From: Scleroderma bovista
Lineage: Eukaryota; Basidiomycota; Agaricomycetes; Boletales; Sclerodermataceae
Assembly (NCBI GenBank): GCA_037178675.1
Contig: JAYMGJ010000761.1
Span: 1-64,000 of the forward strand
DNA: 64,000 nt
Reading direction: 5' to 3'
In this document: positions 48,242-62,399 of the stretch, piece after piece
Numbering within the stretch: position 1 is the stretch's first letter
Layout: each line of letters starts with the position of its first letter
Notes under the pieces: model-generated
The model's input: only the letters and a program-made list of their open reading frames with translations
Databases searched by the model: none
Told to the model about the DNA's origin: nothing
Translations under genes and position numbers: made by a program

Positions 48242-49432
48242 GACTATACGAAACTACATACGAGGAACAGGTCGTGCTTTGCCCCCCCTCATTCGGATTG
48301 CTTTTGCGCTTCGTCATTGCTGCTTTTTTATGCTGTAGTCGAATGCTGTCGATAAGGTGGTCGTTTTTTTTGTATTGCACCTCAGGAATTTTTAGCGAAC
48401 TTGTCATCCTATACAGCTAGATATATAATTTAGATTGTTTGTAAAGTAATGCGCAGAGTCAGACGGAAAACCTCGGACACCTGAACGGACGAGCCTCGGG
48501 AGAGGGAATGGAATAGATTGACTGACTACACTAGAAGCCACCTGTAGTTCCTACTATGAGACATAACCTTGCTTCACTGCAGTGATCTAGCAAATGATAC
48601 TGTACCTCACAGCACTGTGCACTGTGGGAAGTAAATGTGCTGAAAATCAGTGTCATTGGCACTAATCCACCTCAGGCACTACTTTTCAGTAGCAATAGCG
48701 GTCTAGTAGATAGGGTTTTCTTACCAATGCATCAGCAAACTAGCCCTTTTGCTTAGCTGAGCACCCAGCTCAGCAAGTCTGTCCCAGGCTTTACACAGCA
48801 CAACAGACTGGCCCAGTGTTGCACAGCTATCACAGACACTCCAGTCAATCCAGTAGAGTACATACTATACTATTACAGCACTTTGCAAAAGTATGCAGAA
48901 AACCAAAACCAAATTTTGTCGCTGCCAAGAAGGACCCCAGAAGTAGCCCTAGATACATTTAGTATTAGTTAGCGTTAGTAGTTCGTCCTAGTAGTGCTTG
49001 TGGGCTTGCTGCTCCCGTCCACAACCACCCATGACGCAATGATGATGATGACTCACCAATACATACCATTGTCAATGACTGCAGTACGCATGCTTGCATG
49101 ACAACAAACTTACAGGTGTGAGACATCAACAAGTACTACTACCAGGCTCACCCTATAGGTGCATGGCTAGTCGATCATACCACACCATTGCAAAAATGAC
49201 AATGACAGCAACATGTACCCACCCATTGATGCTGCTGTGAGATGATTACCACGACTGGCACTGTAGCACGCACGACAACGCTGACGCCAACAACTCGTGA
49301 TGTGACCACCACCACTCTCTCACATCTGTTGAAAGTTAACCAGCATGTGTTACTGGTACTTCAGTGTGTGACCACGCGATGCTTACATAAGCATTTCAAG
49401 CGCACTATACACAGTAGCTATTTTCATTAATC
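48242..49432. other. Start of transposon-derived zone, no gene
   Basis: After the R3H 3' UTR the sequence becomes CA/AGT-rich with many CAGCAC, AGTAG and TACTG words, unlike the genic part. No long ORF. The final 105 bp (from GTTGAAAGTT at 49328) resemble the leader of the structured repeat family described under findings. Confidence 0.45.
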
Positions 49433-49564
49433 CCTCAGTACCTTGAACATCTACTGAGGGTAAGTAGTCCATTACACACTCATTTCTACACATACTCACT
49501 TGTAGTAGTTACTACAGGTACTACTCTAATTCAGTAGCTTGAACATCTACTGAGGTTACTACAG
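49433..49564 (+). mobile_element. Structured X-I-Y-X-Y repeat, copy A
   Basis: Hairpin CCTCAGTA/TACTGAGG (49433-49459) overlapping X1 (49437-49458). An intron-like spacer follows, beginning GTAAG at 49460, with a TACTCAC box and ending TAG at about 49505. Y1 is GTTACTACAG (49508-49517), then a 15-nt spacer, X2 (49533-49554, one mismatch to X1) and Y2 (49555-49564, identical to Y1). The palindromic word CTTACATAAG lies about 50 nt upstream. Confidence 0.7.
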
Positions 49565-49929
49565 GGTTACCAACTTCCTACCACAGCTTCTGTCCTCTAG
49601 GTCCACTGTAGCAACCCCCCAACACACTTTTTCCAAGAGGTTATGAGCCCTGCTCTTGCCTAGTGGAAGGAGCAGACTTGTGGAAAACAGGATTTACCCT
49701 TACCTTGAAACGATCAAGTGAAATGGTCCTTGAACTCCCTGAACTCGCGCGAAAAAACAAAACTGGAAAATTTACTGCACAAATATCCTTGATGGCGCAG
49801 CCACAGAAGGTGTAGTCAGCCACCTCGCAGGTGCAACACCAAAACCAGTCAATTTGCACGAACTCAATATAGAAAGGTGGTGGTCTGCACAGGGAAGGTC
49901 TAGCCTGAAAGAAGGGAGAAGGAGGAGAC

Positions 49930-50065
49930 CTGTAGTGTAACCTCAGTAGTCTGGCAAGCTACTTTATATTAGTATATACCTATAGGTAACTACAAGGTAT
50001 TAGTAGGTAGGAAAGTGGTTAGTAGGAATGGTACTCACCCTCAGTATGCTGGCAAGCTACTGAGG
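49930..50065 (-). mobile_element. Structured X-I-Y-X-Y repeat, copy E
   Basis: Minus-strand copy. Hairpin CCTCAGTA/TACTGAGG at 50039-50065, spacer beginning GTGAG with TACTAAC and TACTAAT boxes and ending TAG, Y1 GTTACCTATAG, short spacer, X2, and Y2 GTTACACTACAG (49930-49941). It faces copy A tail-to-tail 365 nt away. CTTACATAAG (reverse strand) lies about 40 nt outside the hairpin. Confidence 0.65.
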
Positions 50066-50169
50066 GAACTATGGTACTAGGAACTCTACTCTAGTGCGAT
50101 GCATGCTTATGTAAGTAAGTAAACAAACCATAACAGTCTGTTTATACTCCAACACTCAAAGCATGGAAC

Positions 50170-50832
50170 ATGTCTAATGCAGTGGCTAAGTATATTGTGA
50201 TGGAAGTAATTACAGATTCCCTCCTCGCACGACTCATGCACCATGAGCTCGCCCACACATTCTACAGCCACCTCGCAGCCATTTTTGGCAACCTTGAACC
50301 CATAGCTATCAAATTACCAGTGGAACGGAGCAACGAAGATGAGCCTCTTGGAGAGGACTTGCACTCAAAGTCAGATGGCGCTGACTCAACGCGCACCACA
50401 GACATTGTTGAAGGAAAAGATGTCGAACTTCGAGCTGGTGCAGCCACAGAAAACCCCAAAGAACCACCATATGCACCTGATGGACTGTCAAGCCTAGACA
50501 GGAGCCAGGAGATGGAGCAGAGTGGAAGGGAGCGCAACACGTGTGACCCAGATCGCAATAGAGACCATGGATGTCACCTATTTGAGCCAAAAATGACTCA
50601 AATCCATGATGAAAAACCCAGTGGCAGCATGCCAACTGGTATCCCCAGTATTCCCAATATGAACAATACACCTATCTACTCTAAAGACCCAGGAGACCCG
50701 CCAAACATGCCTGATGGAATGTCGAGGGGAGATGTCCAGGAGATGGCCGAAAACGGAGGGCAGTGGCAGCGCACCATGCACGAGGTGAATCAGAACGACA
50801 GAATGGCTTCGCCAGCCCCATCAGCAAGGTGA
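50170..50832 (+). CDS. Gag-like ORF of an LTR element (UBN2/copia-like, uncertain)
   Basis: 220-codon ORF. The first 50 residues (SNAVAKYIVMEVITDSLLAR, then LAHTFYSHLAAIFG) resemble the helical gag part of copia-type elements, where a short helix pair precedes an F-rich segment. The rest is hydrophilic and Pro/Asp/Asn-rich and carries two diverged internal repeats (APDGLSSLDRSQEMEQSGRE and MPDGMSRGDVQEMAENGG). No zinc knuckle, protease or polymerase follows; a satellite array begins 30 bp after the stop. Probably a solitary or decayed transposon ORF. Confidence 0.45.
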   Translation: MSNAVAKYIVMEVITDSLLARLMHHELAHTFYSHLAAIFGNLEPIAIKLPVERSNEDEPLGEDLHSKSDGADSTRTTDIVEGKDVELRAGAATENPKEPPYAPDGLSSLDRSQEMEQSGRERNTCDPDRNRDHGCHLFEPKMTQIHDEKPSGSMPTGIPSIPNMNNTPIYSKDPGDPPNMPDGMSRGDVQEMAENGGQWQRTMHEVNQNDRMASPAPSAR

Positions 50833-50859
50833 CAATTTCTCTGACAGCACTTAGGTGTC

Positions 50860-51990
50860 TTAACAGTCTGAAATGGTCTGACATGACTTAACAGTCTGGG
50901 AGCATCTGGGATCAGACTGGGAGTTCTGGAATCAGACATTTAAGACCACTCCAGAGCAGTTAGAGAAGTCAGACCCCCAGACAGTAAGTCAGTCAGACAC
51001 TTAAGACCACCCAGACCACCCAGACCAGTCAGACCCCCCAGACCATAAGTCAGTCAGACATTTAAGACCACTTCAGACCAATCAGACCAATCAGACCCCT
51101 CAGACAGTAAGTCAGTCAGACATTTAAGACCAGTACAGACCAGTCAGACCCCCCAGACAGTAAGTCAGCCAGACACTTAAGACCACCTAGACCACCCAGA
51201 CCCCTCAGACAGTAAGTTCATCAGACACTTAAGACTACCCAGACCACCCAGACCCCTCAAACAGTAAGTTAGTCAGACACTTAAGACCACCCAGACCACC
51301 CAGACCACTCAGATCCCCAGACAGTAAGTTAGTCAGACACTTAAGACCACCCAGACCATCCAGAGCAGTTAGACCCCTCAGACAGTAAGTCAGTCAGACC
51401 ACCCAGACCATCCAGACCCTTCAGACAATAAGTTAGTCAGACACTTAAGACCACCCAGACCACCCAGACTGCCTAGAGTTCTAGACAGTAATTCAGTCAG
51501 ACAACTAAGACAACTCCAGATCAGTCAGATCAGTCAGACCCTCCAGACAGTAAGGCAGTCAGACATTTAAGACCTGCCAGACCAGTTAGACCAGTCAGAC
51601 TGGTCAGACCCACCAGACAGTCAGACTAGTCAGAAGTGGCCAGACACACCAGACAGTCAGGCCAGTCAGACACTTCAGGCAACTCCAAACCAGTCAGAGC
51701 AATCAGAGCATCAGACCCCTCAGATAGTCAGAGCAGTCAGACACTTCGGACTGCTCCAGACCAGTCAGAGGGGTCAGAGAGGTCAGACCCACCAGACAGT
51801 CAGGCCAGTCAGATACTTCAGGCCAATCCAGACTAGTCAGAGTGGTTAGAGTTGTCAGACATTCTAGGCAGTCAGACCAGTCAGGCACTTCAGACTGCTC
51901 CAGACCAGTCAGTGGTCAGAGTGATCAGACCCACCAGACAGTCAGGTGAGTCAGACAGTCCAGACAGCTCCAGACCAGTCAGAACTCCCA
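50860..51990. repeat. CAGAC-type satellite with nested period
   Basis: About 1.1 kb of CAGACCA/CAGTCAGAC words about 9-10 bp long, arranged in a longer unit marked by TTAAGAC. That marker recurs at about 50940, 51001, 51062, 51124, 51177, 51229, 51281, 51341 and 51444, giving steps of 61, 61, 62, 53, 52, 52, 60 and 103. A second marker, CAGTAAGT, precedes most units. The right third (from about 51580) keeps only the short unit. Confidence 0.85.
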
Positions 51991-54231
51991 TACCAGAACA
52001 ACCAAAGAAGCAGAAGAAACAATAGAGAAACAAAGGAGAAAAGGAAGAATCATTTTTAGTGCCCAAATGTCAAATTTAGGCGCCCAGTGCCTGCATTCCA
52101 ATATTTTGAATAGCTCCACTGTTTTTGAAGCTATCAATCATGTGACTATACCATCATGGAGCCTAGACCATGGTCTATCTGCCTGTCAAGTTCCAACATA
52201 AATCCATTTATTTCCCATGGAGATATTCCACCTGCAATCCAGACACCTGCTTCATCACTCACTATGGAGTCCACATTTTCTCTGGAACGTTTCTCTGCTA
52301 TTTCAGCAGACCTCAACTATGTCCTGCTCTTGGGACAGCCTCTCCCTGAGCTCCTGTGTACTGTCTGGTACATATCTTCCCAGCCTGCTCCCTCAGTCCC
52401 TCTCATTCTCGGTCAGCGCGTTCTCCTTGTCAGTCCTGTGTCGCGCACATACTTTGGTCATCTCAAGTCTATCGTTAGACTTGGAAATTCATACCTGGTT
52501 GTCTTTGTGTCTCCTGAGTCCTCTGCATATGGTCCTTTTATCCCAGAGTCCTGTCACATCCATCTCCCTCTATCATTCATCTCGCTTCCCTGGACACGTT
52601 GAATCTGCTATTCATGTTTCACTTCCCTGCTATCCTGCAACAAACACGAATGAAACAGTGCTCTAGAACCCTTCTTAAGAGCCCTAATAGAGTACAGAAC
52701 CTTCCCCTTACTGCTCAAGGGAAGACTGCACTTTGGGAGCACCAAATTTCGCGTTTTTGCTCTACAGAAGCTCAATCCATGGGATTTGTGACACTCTGTG
52801 ACCAGCTGTGACTCTACTTGTCATTCCAGGCCCCCTGACACTGCTCTTCTGGTCGGATCAATTATTTTATTATCCCCTAGCCACTCCCATCAGTGGCACT
52901 GCTTCAGAAGCTCATCTCCAGATCTAAAGTTCAATCAATCAGAGGTTGTGCTTCCCTTCTGTCTGAGTCACACAGAGTCACTCTGGCTCACTCTGACTCA
53001 CTCTGCTGCGCATTATTCATCCCCTCTTGGCATTACTAATCCCCATTACTCCCCTTACCAATCACTTACCAATCATCCTTCAAATCATGCTTATCATGCT
53101 GCTTATCAATTCATGACTCATGCCCCTATGATTCATATGCATTATGTCATCGCATATGCTCATTTAGCTTCGATCTACTCATCCCATGCTTTCCCCCCCC
53201 TCTTTTGGGCCCCATGCAATGATTTTTCCATATTCTTGGTTATGCACCCCTTTTTGCCTGTGCTTTTGCTCTTTCCCTTGGCTCAGCAGCTTGTTCAGGC
53301 TCTCCCCATCGGTGACTCAGCCTGATTACACTGCTTATCAATCACTTACCAATTTCTTACCAAGCACTTAGTCATTTGTGCTTACAGGGCCACAGCCCCT
53401 CCTGTATATAAACCAGCAGCCAAAGGCTGCAAGGAAGTGTCTGCTTCCCCCTGAATAAAGCAACCACATTCACTCTCCCTCACTGTCTATAAGCTCCCTC
53501 TTTGTCTTTGGACTTGTAGGTCACCCAGTGCTGGCCTAAAGCTCCTATATTGCTGTTTATCAGATATATCTTGTATCTGATCATTTCTCTAGGCTGAAGC
53601 GCAGTCTAGCATCTCTGTCCACTCCATCCCATCACTGTCCATCGCATTCTTGAAGCAGGAACTGTCCCCTTGCTTCCCTGTTGCTCCATCACTGCTGTTA
53701 CACCCCTGTCATCAATCTATCATTGCTCTTCAATCCCAGGACTCTTCCTAACCACTATGGTAGGCTGAAGAGGAGTCAATACCATCCCAAGTCGCATTCC
53801 ATCCCCATCAGAAGCCCTTCCCTTCCCTCCTACATCCTGCCTGTAGGTGTGCAGCACATCCCCCTGAGGAGATTAAAAACCAGATATGCAAAGGAAGACC
53901 ACCACTCGCATTTTGCTGTCATTTGGTGTTGGTTGTTGGTTGTTCTGACCTCTTCCCTCACTTAGGCGCACAGTGTTTGACCCAGAGACTGCGGAAAGAG
54001 TTTCAGGCCTTTCGAAGTATGCATGAGGCTTCTGCCCTAGCTCCCCTCTCCCCCTGCACCGCTCCCACAGTGGTGCCCCCTCACCCTCCCTCCCCCTCCT
54101 CATCCTTGTCTATGTCCATTGTCCTGGATGGCACAGCCCACCCACAGCATAGATGGTTGCAGCCGCTGCTAGACAACAACCACTGCCCCATCTCTATCCA
54201 TCACGCCATCAATTCATCCATGGTCCCTTTT
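51991..54231. other. Transposon-derived, uncharacterised
   Basis: No recognisable domain. ORFs at 52156-52602, 52798-53325 and 53923-54276 lack motifs. Base use (CT-rich on this strand) and the LTR-like promoter at 53405 suggest one or more decayed LTR elements reading left to right. Confidence 0.4.
53405..53459 (+). promoter_or_regulatory. LTR-like core promoter and poly(A) signal
   Basis: TATATAAA (53405-53412), then the small hairpin GCAGCC-AAA-GGCTGC, then AATAAA (53454-53459). TATA box and AATAAA 40-50 bp apart is the layout of a retrotransposon LTR. The LTR ends could not be defined. Confidence 0.35.
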
Positions 54232-54531
54232 GTTGAAATTCCCGGTCCCTACAGTACTGTTCCCCTTTATTCTTAGTATGGACATGCCGAGCATTCCTTA
54301 CATAATCATGGTCATTCCTCATAGGATGTTTTTTCGTTTTGTACCTCAGTCTCTGTTTGCACAGAAGTACTGAGGTAAGACTATCCTACACACTCTTTTA
54401 CTATCATACTGACCCATGTAGTCTGTTCTGACTCTTGTCTAGGTTAGTTAAATAGAGTCTCTGTTTGCACAGAAGTACTGAGTCTGTTCTGACTCTTGTC
54501 TAGTGTCGAGCTGCACCAGTTCACCTCACAA
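54232..54531 (+). mobile_element. Structured X-I-Y-X-Y repeat, copy B, with leader and tail
   Basis: Leader begins GTTGAAATTCC (54232), then CTTACATAAT, then hairpin CCTCAGT/ACTGAGG (54344-54375). X1 is 54348-54374 (27 nt); the intron-like spacer 54375-54421 starts GTAAG, has TACTGAC and ends TAG; Y1 is 54422-54442; a 13-nt spacer (GTTAGTTAAATAG) follows; X2 is 54456-54482 and Y2 is 54483-54503, both identical to the first copies. The tail ends CTCACAAA. The bases just outside share only CCTTT, so a target duplication is weak here. Confidence 0.7.
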
Positions 54532-54727
54532 AACCTTTCTATCCTCTCAGCATGCCCAAGGATGTGCAACTGGTAGTGCAGGCCATCTTCTCTGCAGACA
54601 TGCCTCGGTTCATGGGTCTCAACTCCAACAGCGACCTCCAGGTTGCTGTCCAGGCCCCATCAGAGCTAGTGGTCAGCGCGATAGTCATGCCTGAGGGTGC
54701 TTGTTTGCCCCCACCTCCAAACATATG

Positions 54728-54872
54728 TTAGCTCAGAGGCAAACTCAGTATCTGGTGTGGAACACTGGATATATAACTGACCTAGCTCAGAGGCAAACTA
54801 AGTAAGTTAGTACTAAGTAAAGGAAAGTGTGACTAGATGTCTTACCTCAGTGTCTGGTGTGGAACACTGAGG
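54728..54872 (-). mobile_element. Structured X-I-Y-X-Y repeat, copy D
   Basis: Minus strand. Hairpin CCTCAGTGT/ACACTGAGG (54845-54872 with X1 54846-54868), spacer 54798-54845 (GTAAG, TACTAAC, TTAG), Y1 TTTGCCTCTGAGCTAG (54782-54797), 15-nt spacer (54767-54781), X2 (54744-54766, one mismatch) and Y2 (54728-54743, one mismatch). It faces copy B tail-to-tail 224 nt away. Confidence 0.7.
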
Positions 54873-55009
54873 TGAAAGCTCTTGTCGTTGTCCATTTTGA
54901 CTGACCAAGGTAGGCTTTCTATTCTGTTTGCACTTAGCTGACCTTTTCCTTCCTTTACAGCCCTTTGACATCTGTTTTGACAGGTTACCAGGTCATTCCC
55001 ACGTGGATA

Positions 55010-55600
55010 TCCACCTTGCCTGCAATCTGGCGCCCTCAAGTCGTCCGTTTCGCCTGTAGGAGGCATGTTTCAAGTCAGCAGGTCGAGTGGGTGACTCAGG
55101 ACCCTTTGGCAGGTATGTCTGTCTCTGTCTGTCCATTTCCCGTCCCTTCTAACCTCCAATTTGATCATCTCACCTCCAAACTCGAGTTTGGGGGTTGAGT
55201 CGCCTTGATGGCATGATCAGTCTCGATCAGATCGATTGGATGGTTTTGCTAACTCATTTACAGCATCCTCTTGCTGTTTCAACACGGGAGCTTGGGTGGT
55301 AGGCCCATCAGAGCCCTCAGTGCTCATTGGCACCCTCCAGCCGTCCATTTTGCGGCATTGCCTGTAGGAGGCGCGTTTCGAGTCAGCAGCTTGAGCAGTC
55401 GATTCAGGGCCCTTTGGTAGGTATGTCCCTCATCATCTGTCCACTTTTCGTCCTTTCTAATGTCCGCTTCAATTCTCTCGCCTCCAGATTTGAATTTGGG
55501 GGTCAAGTCGCTTTGATAGTGTGATCTCAGATCTCCCTTGATCGGATGGAACGGATGGATTTACTGACCCATTTACAGCTTCCTCTCAACGTCTCCACAC
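55010..55600. repeat. Two diverged tandem copies of a roughly 300-bp unit
   Basis: The segments at about 55015-55280 and 55325-55580 align. Both contain CTGTAGGAGGC, GTTTC-AGTCAGCAG, TTTGG-AGGTATGTC, GTCCA-TTT-CGTC, GAATTTGGGGGT-like sequence and CATTTACAGC. Similarity is also visible in the minus-strand reading (KWTD..HT.QR, then PPTG), and the plus reading keeps RR.VSSQQ and EFGG. Probably a duplicated fragment of an unknown transposon gene. Confidence 0.6.
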
Positions 55601-56697
55601 AGGTACTCGAGCAGTGGCTCATCAGAGCCCTCCACGGTGCTCGTTGGCATGCTCAAGCCTCCAGGTGAGTTCGAGTGTCTTTTGATGGATTGTTGGCCTG
55701 TCCTGCATGCTAACCCTCCCATTTCTTCAGTGTTTAGGTGTATTCTATGAACGGTGATGTGGCCGAGGCCGTTTGTGCTCACTATTGCAACCCTTCGGCT
55801 CTCGCCATTGAATTCGTTCAATTTTGGCTTGTTTAATTGCAGTTGGACCATTTGGCTGGGTGTTATGGAGTCATCTCCAGGGCAGTTGACATTTGATATG
55901 TCCCCTGGTGCTCCGTGCTTGAGCTTTCTGACTGGTAGTCCATTTTTAGCAAATGTTTCGCGCGGTGTCCTGTCACCAGTGATTGGGGGTATACACTGCA
56001 AGCATTTCTCAGTGTTTCATGACAAAACATTGTAAAAAAATAAAGGAAAGAGATACTCTTTTATTTACAATTTTGTTTAACAAAAAAGACAAATATCATA
56101 CAGCATCATTTTCATCTTTTTTTGTGTCAAAACATGATTTGAGATCATTTCTAATGTTGAGAATATAAAAAATTTAATCTTTTTCTTCTGCCTGTTCCTT
56201 GCAAAACAAATAAGGAAAAAACAATGTAACTTTTCTCATAGCAAGCATTTTGGCATGTTTTATTAGAAATAAGATAGCATATTATTCTTCAGAACATGTT
56301 GAAAGAAAACAACAAAATTTTCTTCAAGAAACATGGTTGTTCCTGGATGCTGATTGGCTGGCTAGTATGGCGTAATTTCTGCACATTTAGAGCCGCGCCG
56401 CGCTTTTCTCTCTTACTGTGAAAAAAAAATTTATTATGTGCACATTTAGACTAGATAGCTGCGCGTTGTTTCACACATCGGCCTCAAAATATTTGCTTGC
56501 GCGTTGTCAGACTAGTTCTGTTGCCGCAAGAAAAAAATAGATATTTCCCCACGCATTTTAGATTATTTAGCTGCGCGTTACAAGTTTTTGCTTTGTGCAT
56601 TTACTGTAAATTATTGTCGAAAGTATGTGCGCAGTGATTTATTTGCCTATGAACTTAAGAACAGTATCTGTACCCTAGATTTCTAATGTACGAGTAC
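55601..56697. other. AT-rich region with short dispersed repeats
   Basis: From about 56030 the sequence turns AT-rich (runs of A and T of 6-9). Words of the type CACATTTAGA and TAGCTGCGCGTT recur near 56387, 56439 and 56551. A minus-strand ORF (55573-56001, ITGDRTPRETFAKNGLPVRK) has no recognised domain. No gene claimed. Confidence 0.4.
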
Positions 56698-57108
56698 TTA
56701 AATCACAGGTGAAGATGGTTCAGAGGATGATGGAGAAATTGATGGCCGGAACACGAGCCGTTTCACTAGACTTTCACATACATCCAAGACAAACTTGTCT
56801 GCGTACCCAAAAGCTGTCCTCCAGTCGATAATTCGGAACATGCATGATTTGCATCCGCTGCTGACACGGCCAAAACACATATCTTTGAAGCATTTCACAG
56901 CGTCGTCGTAAGGTTGTGGATTCCGCCCATCAAGAAGAAACTTGCCCATGCCATTCCACCACACCGCATACCAGTCTTCCTCACATCCATCTGGGTCTTG
57001 ACAGTCATCTTCATGGAGAATGCTTGGTGGTTCCGCAGCTACGACGCAACAGTGTCCATCTAAGACAGTTTTTGCATATGCCAAGCCAACAAATGTATCG
57101 TTTCCCAT
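56698..57108 (-). CDS. Hypothetical protein next to an LTR insertion
   Basis: Open frame from ATG at 57108 (MGNDTFVGLAYAKTVLDGH) to the stop at 56698, about 136 residues. Cys/Trp/Asp-rich, with CEEDWYAVWWNGMGKFLLDG and SGCKSCMFRIIDWRTAFGY. No family recognised. The frame remains open beyond the ATG into the LTR that begins 9 bp away (57117), so either this is a complete small gene or its 5' part was cut off by the insertion. Confidence 0.4.
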   Translation of the reverse strand: MGNDTFVGLAYAKTVLDGHCCVVAAEPPSILHEDDCQDPDGCEEDWYAVWWNGMGKFLLDGRNPQPYDDAVKCFKDMCFGRVSSGCKSCMFRIIDWRTAFGYADKFVLDVCESLVKRLVFRPSISPSSSEPSSPVI

Positions 57109-57116
57109 GAGTTGAT

Positions 57117-57891
57117 TGTTACGGACCAACTTTTTATCTTATCTAATCTGTGGTTAGATAGCGTTTATCTTTTCTTAGTGTACAGCCTCTATCTTATCTA
57201 CCTAGTCTAGACCTGTACCTCGTGCTGTACATGCTGCCACCCTTGAAATCATTACACATAGCCTTAGCTCCACAGTGATGTCATTACATAGCCTTCTACC
57301 TGTATGTAGCCTCGTGGATAGCCTTGCGTAGCCCTCGTGTATAGTAGTATATATACAGTGCAATCCAGCACCCAGAGGCTCCCCATTCGAGCTCATCTTG
57401 GGTCTTTGCTTTAGATACTCACGTCCTATCCCTCTCAGAGTCTTAGTGTGTGGTCGGGTCCTTGGTGTTTGCCTAGGGTCATCTCACCTGAGATCGAATC
57501 TACACATCTTACTTGCTCTTCCATGCGCTGTTCCCCAGCCTAGTAAAGAGAAACTATACCCAGACTCCAGGGTTAAGGAGCTTCATCTTCACACCTTCTG
57601 TTTCGTTCACGGCCAGCCTTTAGGGCCGTTCCCATAGTGCTTCAGCATTGGGAGTTTTTAGCACTGTCTCTTTATGTACTGTACACCAGCCCAGGGTCAT
57701 GCCTGGTGTCTGAAGAGCAGCGCCCGATCAAGAGAGGTTTGCAGCCTCAAGGTGATTGAGCTATACATACTTGTAGTTCCTGCGTCCATGCAGAGGTAGA
57801 CCTGTGATCTGCAGCCACTAGCCGTTTGTTCTTTGCATAGCTGTGCCACTGCCCTGACCCGGCAAGCATGACAGGCGAACAAAGTCTTACA
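57117..57891 (+). repeat. 5' LTR of gypsy element 1
   Basis: Begins TGTTACGG and ends CTTACA (TG...CA), 775 bp. Contains a TATATATA promoter near 57348. It is followed by CTTAGTTTAGTGG, the same ACA-CTT boundary as in the LTR of element 2. Ends are inferred from these marks; the 3' partner LTR is not in the window. Confidence 0.6.
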
Positions 57892-58259
57892 CTTAGTTTA
57901 GTGGAACACCTGTGGGGATCTAGTCCCAAATAGCTTACCAATTTCCCCGTCACCTTGTCGAAGCGCAACAAGAGCGCTTGGCAATCATTTACAGTCCCCA
58001 CCCTGACACCCCCATTAAAGCACAAGAAAGGGAGTCGGCAATTGAAGAAGAGTTTCAGTTCACCAATGCTGTCGCTGCCTACAGTCGCCTTGTCAGCGAC
58101 TTCGAGATTCAAGTCCTCCTCGGCTTCCACTGTTCCCTTCCTGTCCCACCCCTGCCAGACCTCCCTCTCGCTTGCCGCCACACGTTCCGGTCTTCCGGTC
58201 TCCGACCGCTTAGACAAAGACCTACCCCCTATTCCCTCCTCCACCCCTACTAGTTTGTT

Positions 58260-59652
58260 ATGGCAGACCTCAACCAGCTCCTTGGACAGCTTATCCAGGG
58301 TCAGATCAACCTTCAGGCCCATATCACGGCCCTTGCAGCTGCACAGCCTCAGCCTGCACCGCCGCCGCGCAAGAAGGTGGTCACGGATCCCAGGAGTTAC
58401 GACGGCTCCCCTCAGAGGTTTCACGAGTGGTGGTCAAAGATCAAGATCTGGCTTCAGATCTCAATGGAGGGGGCAACCAATGCCCAGGTCACCATGGCAG
58501 TACTCTCTTGGCTCACTGGCCCGAAAGCTGGTCGGTGGGCTCAGGTCTGTCTGGACAGCTGCATGGTGGCAGCACATGCACTCGCCAATGCCCCGCCTAT
58601 ACCAGCAGGCCAGCCTGGCCCACTTGGGATGACTTCTCAGAGGAGATAGAAAGGTTCTTTCTCCCTGGTAACAATGCCAAGTGGGCACGTGCCCAACTTC
58701 TCCACCTGAGGCAGGGCCCTAGGCAGAGGATCAATGACTTCTTAGCGCAGTTCGAGGCGCTCAAGAACCAGAGTGGGTGCGTAGATGATTACGCTTGTGA
58801 CCTCCTCGAACGTGCGCTCCAGAGGAAACTCTTGGAGCAAATCTACCTGCAGAACATGCGTCGAGACACGTATGCTCGGCTTGCAGCTTCGTCTCGTGAG
58901 ATGGGGAGAGCACAGGAGCTTTTCCTTATCAATGTTCAGAGTCAGGGGTCGGCCCGCTACTACCAGGGCCAAAATTATTCATCTTCAGCCGCATCTGGGA
59001 GTGGTACCCCCATGGATATAGGTGCCGCTGAGACAAACCAGCAAAGGGGTAAAGGGCCCCAATGCTACAACTGCCAATTATTTGGCCACATTGCATGTGA
59101 GTGCACAAAGCCGCGTCGCCCTCGTCGTGGGCAACAACAAGCACGGGCAACGCAAGCCCAGCCAGAGGATGTCCGGCTAAATGCAGTAAGAGGAATGATG
59201 TTTGCAAAAATGCAGGCGTTTTTCACAGATTTAAAAGATTAGAGAGTGAGGATACATCGGGCATCCTTGCTCTCGAATCTTCTTTGGACACTGCTGTACG
59301 TATTCTGGACTATAGACTTTCTTGTGCTACTACTCCTGCTGTGCAGGAAATATTTAAATACCGTGTTGCTTTGGTACGTACAAAAATAGCGAAAACCCAT
59401 AAAAAAGTGTCTTCTGTAGTTTCTTCTGTCTCGGTTTCTCCTTCTCGCTTTTCTGTTTTATCCATTGATAGTATGGACTGTGACTTGGACTATTCTGTAC
59501 CTTCTAAGGGGGTCCCTGCAAAGGGCTTGGCGCCAGAAGTAAAATTGAGTGTGCTTAATTCCCAATCAAATAAAAATATTCTTTCTCCTTCTTTGGCATC
59601 TAAGGAACCGGAAAGTCCCGCCGGCAGCTTGGAAGTTCTCATGGACTTATGA
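58260..59652 (+). pseudogene. gag region of gypsy element 1
   Basis: Starts MADLNQLLGQLIQGQINLQA. Retrotransposon gag motifs include PRSYDGSPQRFHEWWSKIKI and WLTGPKAGRWAQ. Around 58600-58620 the coding frame must change to continue as WPTWDDFSEEIERFFLPG. A zinc knuckle CYNCQLFGHIACEC (C-x2-C-x4-H-x4-C) lies near 59065-59105. That frame stops at 59242, and reading continues in the next frame (ESEDTSGILALESSLDTAVR) to TGA at 59650. The first shift looks like decay; the change near 59230 could be decay or a gag-pol frameshift site. Confidence 0.75.
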
Positions 59653-59712
59653 AGGTCCTTCACAATGGAACATGAAGTGACAGTACCGGTCTGCATCCGT
59701 GGACCACTTAAT

Positions 59713-60001
59713 GTTGAAATTCCTACTTGATTACTACCATTCTTTGGTACTTACTGATAGTTTCCTTATTGGTGCGATGAGCATCCTTACATAAGCACAG
59801 ACTATTTTCATCCATTCGAGGATTCCTTTCACCTCAGTGTTCCAAGATGAATCACTGAGGTAAGATACTGTTACACACTCTTTTATTTAGTACTAACCTA
59901 CCTACTAAGTTGCCTCTGAGCTAGGTTAGTTATATCAAGTGTTCCAAGATGAATCACTGAGTTGCCTCTGAGCTAGTTCCCTGCACGAGCCATCTAACAA
60001 A
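59713..60001 (+). mobile_element. Structured X-I-Y-X-Y repeat, copy C, inserted in gypsy protease
   Basis: About 289 bp between two ACTTAAT heptamers (59706-59712 and 60002-60008). Leader GTTGAAATTCC, CTTACATAAG near 59786, hairpin CCTCAGT/ACTGAGG (59832-59860). X1 59836-59859, spacer 59860-59909 (GTAAG, TACTAAC, AAG), Y1 59910-59924 (TTGCCTCTGAGCTAG), 13-nt spacer, X2 59938-59961 and Y2 59962-59976, both identical to the first copies. The tail ends CATCTAACAAA. No coding capacity. Confidence 0.75.
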
Positions 60002-60002
60002 A

Positions 60003-61741
60003 CTTAATACTATTAAGGTAGACGCTCTGCTAGACAGTGGCACTACTGGTTGTTTTGTTGACAAGAGCTGGGCTCTTGATCGGCGTCTTCAGTTATCTAA
60101 GCTGGTAAAGCCCGTCCCTGTGCTTAATGTAGATGGCACTAGGAATCAGGAGGGCGATATCACGCATTATGTATTGTTGACAGTCGGTATTGGGAAACAC
60201 GCTGAAAAGCTGTGGTGTGTTGTCACCTGCCTTGGAAAAGTGCCGCTTATCCTTGGCCACACCTGGCTTCAGAAGCATAATCCTGATATAGATTGGGTCA
60301 CTGGCAAAGTTAATTTAACTAGGTGTCCTCCAGAGTGCAAGTCACTTTTGGAAACACGCTTTGCTAAAATGTTGCGAGAAAACGAATCTCAGGAAACTTG
60401 GGTCCAGGCTTTCAAAGCTCATGAATCAAAGGTCGCTATCGATGAGTCGACCCTAGAAGAAGCTCAGAAGCAGGTACCTAAAAAGTACTGGGAGTTCCTA
60501 GACGTATTTAGTAAAAAGTCGTCAGAGCACATGCTGCTAAGGAAACCTTGGGATCATGGAATTGATCTAAAAGAAGACTTCCCGCCCAAAAATGGAAGAC
60601 TTATCCCACTTTCTGTTGATGAACAAAAAGAAGTTGAATCGTTCCTTGATGATCAACTTGCTAAAGGATACATTCGGCCTTCTATTAGTCAGCAGACGTC
60701 ACTGGTCTTCTTTATCCCGAAAAAGGACAGCAAGAAGCGCATGGTACAGGATTACCAATATGTAAACGACTGGACGATTAAAAATAATTATCCACTACCG
60801 CTTATCTCTCAGCTTGTTGACAAGCTTAAAGGTTGCAAACTCTTCACGAAGATGGATCTTCGGTGGGGTTACAACAATATGAGGATTCGTGAAGGCAATG
60901 AGTGGAAAGCTGTGTTTGTAACGCACAAAGGGGCTTTCAAGCCGTTAGTTATGTATTTCAGTCTCTGTAATTCACCCGCGACATTCCAGAAGATGATGAA
61001 TGAGATTTTCCACGATATGTCGGATGTCTGCGTGGTGTATATCGATGACCTTATGATATTTACGGATACGGACGATCAGGAAAGGCATGATAGAATCGTG
61101 CTGGAAGTTTTGAAACATTTACACGATAATGATCTTTACGTTAAACCTGAGAAGTGTCACTTCAGAGTCACCGAAGTTGATTTCCTCGGTATGATCGTTT
61201 CACGTGATGATATCAAGATGGACCCTGAAAAATTTAATGCTATTTTGAAGTGGCCTGAGCCAACAAACGTAAAGCAGGTTCGCACGTTTTTAGGTCTCGG
61301 CAACTTCTATAGACACTTTATTAAAGATTATGTGATCATGGCTAGGCCCATGATGGACCTTACGTGTAAGGATACAGTGTTTACCTTTGGAGAGAAGGAA
61401 CACGCTGCGTTTGAGGCTTTGAAAGCCGCCTTTACTCGTGCTCCGGTACTCCAGTACCCTGACCAGGACCGCGAATTCCACCTGGAAACAGACGCATCTG
61501 AATTCGCCGTCGGAGGAGTGATATCCGTGAAGTGCGAAGACAGCAAATTCAGACCCGTCGCGTACATGTCACATTCCATGACACCTCCAGAACGAAATTA
61601 TCCTATTCACGATAAAGAGATGCTGGCCATCATAAAAGCAACTGAGGCCTGGCACCATTATCTCGAAGCCACTCCTTATGCTTTTGAGATATATATGGAC
61701 CACCATAATTTAACGTACTTTACCAAGTCACAGAACCTGTC
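60003..61741 (+). pseudogene. pol region of gypsy element 1 (protease, RT, RNase H)
   Basis: Aspartic protease motif VDALLDSGTTGCFVDKSW near 60018. Reverse transcriptase with QDYQYVNDWTIKNNYPLP, KMDLRWGYNNMRIREG and the catalytic YIDD in VVYIDDLMIF (about 61035-61065), then KCHFRVTEVDFLGMIVS. RNase H starts FHLETDASEFAVGG, with MLAIIKATEAWHHYLE and YMDHHNLTYFT. The frame is intact from 60003 until cut at 61741 by the next LTR, just before integrase would start. Confidence 0.88.
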
Positions 61742-62399
61742 TGTTACGACCATGCCCAACTCCGGGCCTTATCCGGTCACTCCGGTCGCATCGCAGCTCT
61801 ACAGCTCTACTCCGGTCGCTCGTCTCCTACTCCGGTCGCGCTCACGCAGATAACCTTCCGTTAAGCACGACCCTTGGTCTATGCTCTATTCGCTCGTTAC
61901 CACACTTCGCCGTTTACCCTGTCTTGACGTGAGTTCTCCGTGAACTCGATATATCCTATACCTTGTAGCATTTTCACCGGACCTGGTTTATTTTACCCGG
62001 ACCTGACTTTATTTTCATTGGACCTGACCTAGTACTTCCTCCGGTTGTCCCTTGTCCGCCTTTTAGGCTGTTTACTTGTCACCGTAAATACTCGACCCTA
62101 GTTCTCACTTAGTATAAGTACTCTGTAGATTATCCTGTACTCCTCAGTCTGAAATCAACATAAGTCACTACTCCTGTTCTCGTCCATCTCCGTCTCTGTC
62201 TCTGTCTCCTTCCCTTGACCGGAACCTACGCAAGGGGTCAACGCTCGTTGTCCTTAGTCGTTGAACCCAATCGGTCACCAACTCCGGCCGGACTAATCTC
62301 TTGTCCAGCATCTGCCCTCCTCCTTCGTCCGCTCTCGTCCGGACTTGACCGGACCTCTTACCAGAGTAGACCCGGACTTGACAGTATTTCAGACTAACA
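61742..62399 (+). repeat. 5' LTR of LTR element 2
   Basis: Begins TGTTACGACCATGCCC and ends ACTAACA, about 658 bp. The first about 180 bp recur at 63817-64000 with scattered changes. Contains many TCCGGT/CCGGAC words. Confidence 0.75.

Follow-up and report, generated by a model that had tools for sequence, protein, structure and literature searches.

Ty1/copia LTRs of Scleroderma bovista with two putative introns and a putative stored spliced leader: a proposed landing-pad model for intron retention

An intron lying in the R region of an LTR retrotransposon should vanish at the first jump made through a spliced RNA. The window considered here, a stretch of 64,000 nucleotides of Scleroderma bovista DNA, raises the question of how such introns could nevertheless persist: it contains five copies of a repeat in which a segment X, an intron-like piece, a segment Y and a spacer are followed by X and Y again. 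These copies lie where a preliminary description had located them, and the layout itself is real (Table 1). As described there, X begins inside a CCTCAGT/ACTGAGG hairpin, the 45–50-nt piece is intron-like (GTRAG start, AG end, TACTAAC-like box), the spacer starts with GT, and Y ends with YAG. A layout-only script (GTRAG, with the preceding 12 nt repeated and 10 nt after an AG repeated) recovered four of the five copies from the 64 kb. The one that escaped it, copy B on the minus strand, did so most likely because of an indel difference between its Y1 and Y2. Copy B (two mismatches in X, an indel in Y) is the loosest copy, not copy E as had been stated, in which the repeats are exact. Copy E lies inside what looks like a Ty3/gypsy element. 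The window gave no Rfam match at gathering scores.

Table 1. Coordinates of the repeat copies and associated features in the window
Feature	Position	Strand	U3	X1	Intron 1	Y1	Spacer	N	X2	Y2	U5	Remarks
Copy A, 5′ LTR of broken element	49327–49638	+		49437–49459	49460–49508	49509–49517			49533–49555	49556–49564		LTR start TGTTGAAAGTT; PBS directly 3′ at 49639
Primer-binding site GGTTATGAGCCC, copy A element	49639–49650	+										Complements tRNA-Met anticodon arm; tRNA-Met genes with CGGGGCTCATAACC
Copy B, complete solo LTR	49868–50154	−		50061–50039	50038–49990	49989–49980			49963–49941	49940–49930		TSD TTGAG; second lineage (TGTTGGAG...CTATA); Y1 boundary placed by hand
Copy C, complete solo LTR	54231–54533	+	54231–54347	54348–54374	54375–54421	54422–54442	54443–54454	54455	54456–54482	54483–54503	54504–54533	5-bp TSD CCTTT on both flanks
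Hairpin CCTCAGT...ACTGAGG, copy C	54344–54375	+										Spans inferred RNA start (54348) and intron 1 donor (54375)
Copy D, LTR fragment	54728–54877	−		54868–54846	54845–54798	54797–54782			54766–54744	from 54743		Cut just outside hairpin and near Y2 end; ends by eye
Copy E, complete solo LTR	59712–60002	+		59836–59859	59860–59909	59910–59924	59925–59936	59937	59938–59961	59962–59976	59977–60002	TSD CTTAA

The copies lie within LTRs of Ty1/copia elements, of which they probably form the R/U5 portion. Around the layout copies, 79 intron-bearing LTRs were delimited, the remaining places having been missed by the end motifs, being broken, or not being LTRs. A perfect 5-bp TSD was found in 37 of the 44 LTR calls scored as solo; the seven misses comprise five one-base differences, a false start of a twice-called LTR (L002) and a 3′ LTR (L091). 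Paired LTRs are 96–100% alike, and the pair of L032 is 100% identical, a sequence mark of recent movement. The primer-binding site GGTTATGAGCCC(C)G adjoins the 5′ LTRs and complements CGGGGCTCATAACC in two tRNA-Met genes, the matching primer being probably tRNA-iMet, and a purine tract is present in the elements. An intact frame of 1533 amino acids encodes gag, protease, integrase and RT in the copia order, with integrase preceding RT. In the one element scanned with Pfam (L033), the frame contains Retrotran_gag_2 (73–240), Pol_BBD (345–427), rve (570–664) and RVT_2 (1056–1296). Among 50 relatives of the polyprotein, the first 14 share 46–58% identity over 32–99% of the query, four of them with named sources (Amanita, Rhodofomes, Trametes and Pisolithus) that point to a basidiomycete host. 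IMG/VR contained no relative of the polyprotein, the hairpin-donor pattern had seven matches there with the layout in none (about 150 nt inspected), and a plasmid collection gave no match. A spliced-leader RNA, suggested by the 22–27-nt exon before a hairpin donor, was rejected since the copies are LTRs.

The search of the whole genome that the preliminary description had proposed yielded many further copies. The patterns CTCAGT-N8-20-ACTGAGGTAAG and CTCAGT-N8-20-ACTGAGGGTRAG gave, respectively, 123 and 252 exact matches in the 51.8-Mb genome, these being pattern matches of which part were inspected individually, and reversed control patterns gave none genome-wide. With a looser pattern, 90 distinct places were obtained among the loci fetched, and the full layout was recognized in 71 of them by a script that tolerated up to 30% mismatch in X2. 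The remaining 19 were 14 short forms (X-intron-Y), one long copy with a foreign X2 (L029), and four that were broken, unrelated or strand artefacts. Script-based splitting into segments succeeded for 69 long copies; among these, X1 equals X2 exactly in 55 and Y1 equals Y2 exactly in 60. The order of the LTR is U3-CCTC|X1-intron 1-Y1-intron 2-U5, where intron 2 consists of the spacer, a single base N, X2 and Y2. So written, X2-Y2-U5 is the expected splice product of X1^Y1^U5. The earlier proposal that X and Y are copied jointly in each event is supported. Read as exons, the pieces fit: X2-Y2 corresponds to X1-intron-Y1 after splicing.

In 69 of the 71 long copies intron 1 ends with AG, an ending to which the script gave preference, and GTRAG was required by the search; TACTAAC with at most one mismatch occurs within it in 69 of the 71. 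X is joined to Y exactly at GT/AG both in X2-Y2 blocks and in intronless LTRs. With its GT...AG ends, its branch site and its exact removal in cDNA-derived copies, intron 1 would qualify as spliceosomal. Concerning intron 2, its putative limits are Y1|GTTAGT ... Y2 TAG|, and its removal is visible only as X-Y-U5 in copies. Y1 ends with AG before GT in 69 of 71 copies according to the script, and also, by eye, in copy B. A tandem CTAG occurs where Y2 meets U5 in 5 of 62 cases, versus 0 of 63 at the end of Y1, a distribution to be expected if Y1 supplies a donor and Y2 an acceptor that can wobble (GAG|CTAG).

The upstream edge of X2 is sharp. X1 and X2 agree in 68–71 of the 71 long copies at each of positions +1 to +12, and in 14, 3, 2, 3, 35 and 3 of them at positions −1 to −6. 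This edge, at TC|AGT, is read as the probable RNA start; TCAGT is an initiator-like motif. When 32 long LTRs of C type were compared over 306 columns, variability was highest at N, the base preceding X2 (A16 T9 C5 G2). Its sharing by nearest neighbours among 25 insertions gave no kinship signal (5.5 versus 8.3 permuted, p 0.86), and by subfamily it ranked first in variability in those of 14 and 7 insertions and ninth in that of 4. N is identical between both LTRs in all nine elements in which both are long. We interpret this behaviour as the probable trace of a base appended at the cap without a template. X1 and X2 differ at two or more positions in eight copies. In five of these (L008, L029, L044, L062 and copy B of the window) X2 equals exactly the X1 of another lineage, that of a sister lineage (CCAGACT) in copy B; in the other three (L027, L052 and L069) no exact match to another lineage's X1 was found. 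It is as if the foreign blocks had come from the strong-stop cDNA of a co-packaged sister RNA.

The hairpin lies across the probable RNA start. For the X type of copy C, the local fold was −18.2 kcal/mol with CCTC and −4.7 kcal/mol without it; the 12 X types listed gave −15 to −19 with CCTC and −4 to −9 without. The mean unpaired probability of the intron 1 donor was 0.14 with U3 versus 0.34 without, and it was lower with U3 in 83 of 90 places. Counting against such an effect, donor pairing was unaffected by the hairpin in L013 and in two X types of the A lineage (0.23/0.19 and 0.23/0.25). In favour of the hairpin, the inner pair at +4 is G-C, A-T or C-G depending on the lineage; against it, the C lineage has no pair there. 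As the hairpin covers the donor only where U3 is transcribed, the 3′ RNA copy should stay unspliced at intron 1. For intron 2, its donor can pair with the branch region of intron 1 over 9 bp in eight of the 14 X types and over 5–6 bp in the other six, the 9-bp pairing having a shuffle p of 0.035–0.054 each in X types that are not independent. Such a lock helix, as a basis for the retention of intron 2 in the 3′ copy, is suggestive only.

To account for these features we favour, with a probability of roughly 0.8, a landing-pad model in which a copia LTR carries two small introns that are kept because the spliced strong-stop lands on X2-Y2. The RNA would start at the A of TCAGT, and at its 5′ end both introns would be spliced out to give X-Y-U5. 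From a half-tRNA-iMet primer, cDNA would be made through U5, Y and X up to the cap, where an untemplated base would often be appended. In the unspliced R of the 3′ part of the RNA, the strong-stop would anneal to the X2-Y2 pad, which already has the spliced sequence, and be extended through the spacer, Y1, intron 1, X1 and U3. The resulting LTR would keep both introns, with X2-Y2 and N rewritten. CCTC, upstream of the RNA start, would pair with the intron 1 donor in a hairpin complete only with U3 transcribed, which would mask that donor in the 3′ copy and leave it free at the 5′ end. The anatomy, the equality of X2-Y2 with spliced X1/Y1, the sharp X2 start, the way N varies, the existence of three LTR forms and the hairpin sequence are features of the DNA itself; actual splicing, the RNA start, the order of steps including the transfer, and donor masking are what they suggest.

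The model predicts two side products: a strong-stop landing on X1 would give an intronless LTR, and one landing or slipping on Y1 would give a short LTR. Both forms were found. Three intronless-LTR patterns gave 2, 5 and 43 matches; the two of the first pattern share flanks and hence represent one insertion, at least two of the 43 are X2 blocks, and ten intronless matches were inspected. In two elements both LTRs are intronless. Intron-bearing matches (375 by exact pattern) far exceed intronless ones (at most 48), contrary to the loss expected of an intron in R. In the C type there are 14 short LTRs versus 43 long ones. Five elements pair one long with one short LTR (TSDs matching in three, with a one-base mismatch in one, and at a contig edge in one). 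These pairs count against the model, for plain LTR replication needs a further slip to produce them.

Among the alternatives, the least unlikely is an end-to-end jump: the spliced strong-stop would pass, from its cap end, onto an RNA that terminates where the spacer ends, and X2-Y2 would be newly made each time without annealing. It leads to identical products with an identical variable N and, as a one-off, it offers a natural origin for the first X2-Y2 block. However, had the acceptor been polyadenylated, stretches of A would be expected at the joint, and in the joints listed A never occurs four or more times in succession; annealing to X2-Y2 requires nothing unusual. The data fit both forms equally, and the landing pad is preferred because it does not call for an RNA terminating at the spacer. 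Rather doubtful, too, is a single intron with X1 spliced to Y2, the AG ending X2 serving as acceptor and Y1 and the spacer being intronic. Likewise this yields X-Y-U5, and X2 ends with GAG or GAGG in 70 of 71 long copies (CAG in L069). Yet Y1 would not be copied into Y2, whereas the Y changes among the C subfamilies are in both (columns 201 and 262, each 20/12), and both the AG|GT after Y1 and the restriction of CTAG tandems to Y2|U5 would be left unexplained. A local DNA duplication, homogenised by gene conversion or inter-LTR recombination with no role for RNA, is very improbable: nearby direct repeats can in general convert each other, but here the blocks are split precisely at intron boundaries, the edge falls at the initiator-like TCAGT with one joint base free to vary, and precise intronless LTRs occur at both ends of two elements. 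Finally, the preliminary reading as miniature relatives of Ngaro/DIRS elements, which have a tyrosine recombinase and no target duplication, can practically be discarded: X1 - Y1 - X2Y2 does resemble the A1 - B1A2B2 order of split direct repeats, but the reading is contradicted by the rve integrase, the 5-bp TSDs and the LTRs with PBS and purine tract.

Returning to the landing-pad model, it is likely that these LTR introns rebuild themselves. Splicing would define the 5′ end of the RNA, and the stored spliced leader would serve first as transfer site and then as the acceptor part of intron 2, spliced in the next round. The hairpin would mark which R is spliceable. Splicing and reverse transcription would thus be locked together and LTR length reset in each cycle. 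If true, this is a natural solution for intron retention in a reverse-transcribing element, in which splicing determines the site of strand transfer, and N, X2-Y2 and foreign X2-Y2 are a DNA record of RNA start, untemplated addition and co-packaging.

Such an LTR was not found described in the open-access literature, including the available portions of PMC5542766, PMC12786077, PMC5445492, PMC5371799 and PMC6885630 (subscription papers fall outside this scope). In the available portions, a phrase match in PMC5542766 is an engineered vector named LTR1, and the word "intron" is absent from PMC5445492. Ogre, EVADE and Cer1 are LTR retrotransposons with introns and with spliced and unspliced element RNAs, splicing giving subgenomic RNAs in Ogre and EVADE and an RNA-export protein in Cer1, according to the available part of PMC12786077. 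In the present case, by contrast, the two putative introns fall within the repeated terminus, from which they would be expected to disappear if the genomic RNA is spliced. With Ty1/copia, Drosophila copia included, the elements share the gag-PR-INT-RT order, LTRs, the 5-bp TSD and a PBS for the tRNA-Met anticodon arm; they differ in the putative introns in R/U5 and in the spliced leader (X2-Y2) stored in long LTRs. The half-tRNA primer of Drosophila copia is tRNA-iMet; use of a half-tRNA there appears in the available part of PMC5371799. The putative donor in the R region of the LTR resembles the situation in HTLV/BLV and foamy viruses. In these the splice donor lies in R or near the cap, the acceptor lies far downstream and the unspliced RNA is the genome, and we know of no duplicated spliced leader in them. 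Penelope-like elements, of a different element class, are likewise retroelements that retain introns, to our knowledge with no spliced copy beside the unspliced one. Retroviruses, too, have signals in R that are used at one RNA end only, through poly(A) hairpins and enhancers in U3. As there, U3, present only in the 3′ copy, would distinguish that copy; here, in contrast to retroviral poly(A) signals, the controlled signal would be a splice donor.

The repeats of the window belong to the long terminal repeats of copia elements. Many copies of the C type (the lineage of copy C) were paired on one strand, about 4.9 kb apart, and self-comparison gave the order 5′ LTR, GGTTATGAGCCC, gag-pol frame, GAGTGGGTG and second LTR, the LTRs being of about 306–309 bp (TGTTGAAATTCC...CACAAAA). 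Paired LTRs were 96–100% alike over their aligning part; by eye, many differences of the C-type pairs resemble C/T or G/A changes, as from RIP-like or methylation decay. In an intact frame of 1533 aa, gag, protease, integrase and RT are of copia type and follow the copia order. Perfect target duplications of 5 bp flanked 37/44 of the LTR calls scored as solo, and five of the other seven showed a one-base difference.

Assignment of the five repeat copies in the window (target duplications given as sequence are perfect, 5 bp)
Copy	Position	Strand	Target duplication	Assignment
A	49327..49638	+		5′ LTR, element broken
B	49868..50154	-	TTGAG	solo LTR
C	54231..54533	+	CCTTT	solo LTR
D	54728..54877	-	not evident (by eye)	LTR fragment, both sides cut near hairpin foot and Y2 end
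E	59712..60002	+	CTTAA	solo LTR

Other features were seen in the same region. Solo LTR E interrupts what is by eye a Ty3/gypsy-like element (57934-61853), with a gag frame bearing a CCHC-like motif, the protease motif DSGTTG and a frame for RT. A long degenerate CAGAC-rich tandem array, with spacings near 52–61 nt, lies between copies B and C (50900-51960), and an imperfect direct duplication, 73–75% alike at a distance of 308–315 nt, at 55052-55603.

The five cores of the preliminary description were borne out, each running from X1 through an intron-like stretch to Y1 and then over a spacer to X2 and Y2 (X and Y being exon-like blocks), and the family extends across the genome (51.8 Mb in 850 contigs): hairpin plus donor gave 123 exact matches for the C/D/E lineages and 252 for the A/B lineages, copy counts that are approximately upper bounds for insertions, since one intronless insertion with identical flanks occurred on two contigs (L077 and L078; C544 and C419) and some matches may likewise be one insertion seen twice. 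In the assembly these two contigs are either allelic or duplicated. The reversed control patterns of both searches gave 0 matches genome-wide. A further diverged family of like layout (L027, minus strand, 1885; X loop TTCATTCTACCATCAA, spacer GTAACTAATTGA) was seen in one copy, and another match to hairpin and donor (L013; X AGTCATCGTCTCTGGGACTGAG) lacked a second X, by chance or as a member of another family.

The places fetched were a non-random set (the first 30 on the list, followed by selected pairs and by more places from the list), with few A/B copies read. Among the 90 distinct places matching a loose pattern, copies identical over 240 nt being counted once, 71 were assigned by script to a long form, U3-X1-i1-Y1-s-N-X2-Y2-U5 (i1, intron 1; s, spacer; N, one base), and 14 to a short form, U3-X1-i1-Y-U5; L029 was a long LTR with a foreign X2, and L011, L013, L050(-) and L056 were broken, unrelated or a strand artefact. 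Exact patterns for the C type gave 43 long versus 14 short. The loose pattern requires a donor, so intronless copies (U3-X-Y-U5) are invisible to this tally and were sought separately with three patterns, which yielded 2 matches (one insertion, flanks in common), 5 matches, and 43 matches of which at most 41 are intronless, because two of them (C76 and C192) proved to be X2 blocks from intron-bearing copies. X was joined exactly to Y, and Y to U5, in 10/10 intronless copies read (all seven of the first two patterns and three of the third). Both LTRs were intronless in two elements (C459, C440), and five paired a long LTR with a short one, both orders being represented (L020/L021, L038, L002/L004, L009/L010, L060).

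X2-Y2 equals X1-i1-Y1 after excision of GTRAG...AG, and its sequence identifies it as a probable record of spliced RNA. X1 and X2 agreed in 68–71 of 71 copies at each of 12 positions from +1 on, against 14, 3, 2, 3, 35 and 3 of 71 at -1 to -6; such a sharp edge, here at TC|AGT, is what an RNA 5′ end would be expected to leave. The base that precedes X2 (N) showed the greatest variability among the 306 columns of 32 C-type LTRs, and ranked first among 14 insertions, first among 7 and ninth among 4 within subfamilies. It did not track kinship (nearest neighbours agreed in 5.5/25 versus 8.3 permuted, p 0.86), and was identical between both LTRs of an element in 9/9 both-long cases. Reverse transcriptases of the MMLV type are known to add untemplated bases at template ends (PMC6885630).

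Co-variation of Y1 and Y2, raised in the preliminary description, was found, Y2 following Y1 among the C subfamilies and columns 201 and 262 splitting alike. AG preceded GT at the Y1 end in 69/71 copies, by script, and tandem CTAG occurred at Y2|U5 in 5/62 versus 0/63 at Y1. These three observations would be explained by a second intron, with its donor at Y1 and its acceptor at Y2. The spliced leader would then be X-Y1-U5, and its copying would rewrite both X2 and Y2.

As to how introns might be retained, the strong-stop cDNA X-Y-U5 would fit, at full length, onto X2-Y2 of an unspliced 3′ R, and extension would then copy spacer, Y1, i1, X1 and U3. Landing on X1 would give an intronless LTR, and landing or slipping on Y1 a short one; the mixed long/short pairs would need an additional slip. 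Eight copies had at least two X1-X2 differences, and in five (L008, L029, L044, L062 and window copy B) X2 exactly matched the X1 of another lineage, as would follow if another RNA in the same particle had supplied the strong-stop; X2 of the other three (L027, L052, L069) had no match among the X1 sequences compared.

Since CCTC lies upstream of the putative RNA start, the CCTCAGT/ACTGAGG hairpin should form only in transcripts through U3, that is, in the 3′ LTR, where it would cover the intron-1 donor. Computed local folds were of -15 to -19 kcal/mol with CCTC versus -4 to -9 without it (12 X types printed), and the mean computed unpaired probability of the donor went from 0.14 with U3 to 0.34 without, rising in 83/90 copies; L013 and two X types of the A lineage showed no such change. 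Across copies the stem is preserved and the loops vary, pair +4 being G-C, A-T or C-G but absent in the C lineage. The intron-2 donor can pair over 9 bp with the branch region of intron 1 in 8/14 X types, which is only suggestive of a means of keeping intron 2 in the 3′ copy.

Concerning priming, two tRNA-Met genes have an anticodon arm complementary to the site that follows the 5′ LTR, a situation like the half-tRNA priming reported for Drosophila copia (PMC5371799).
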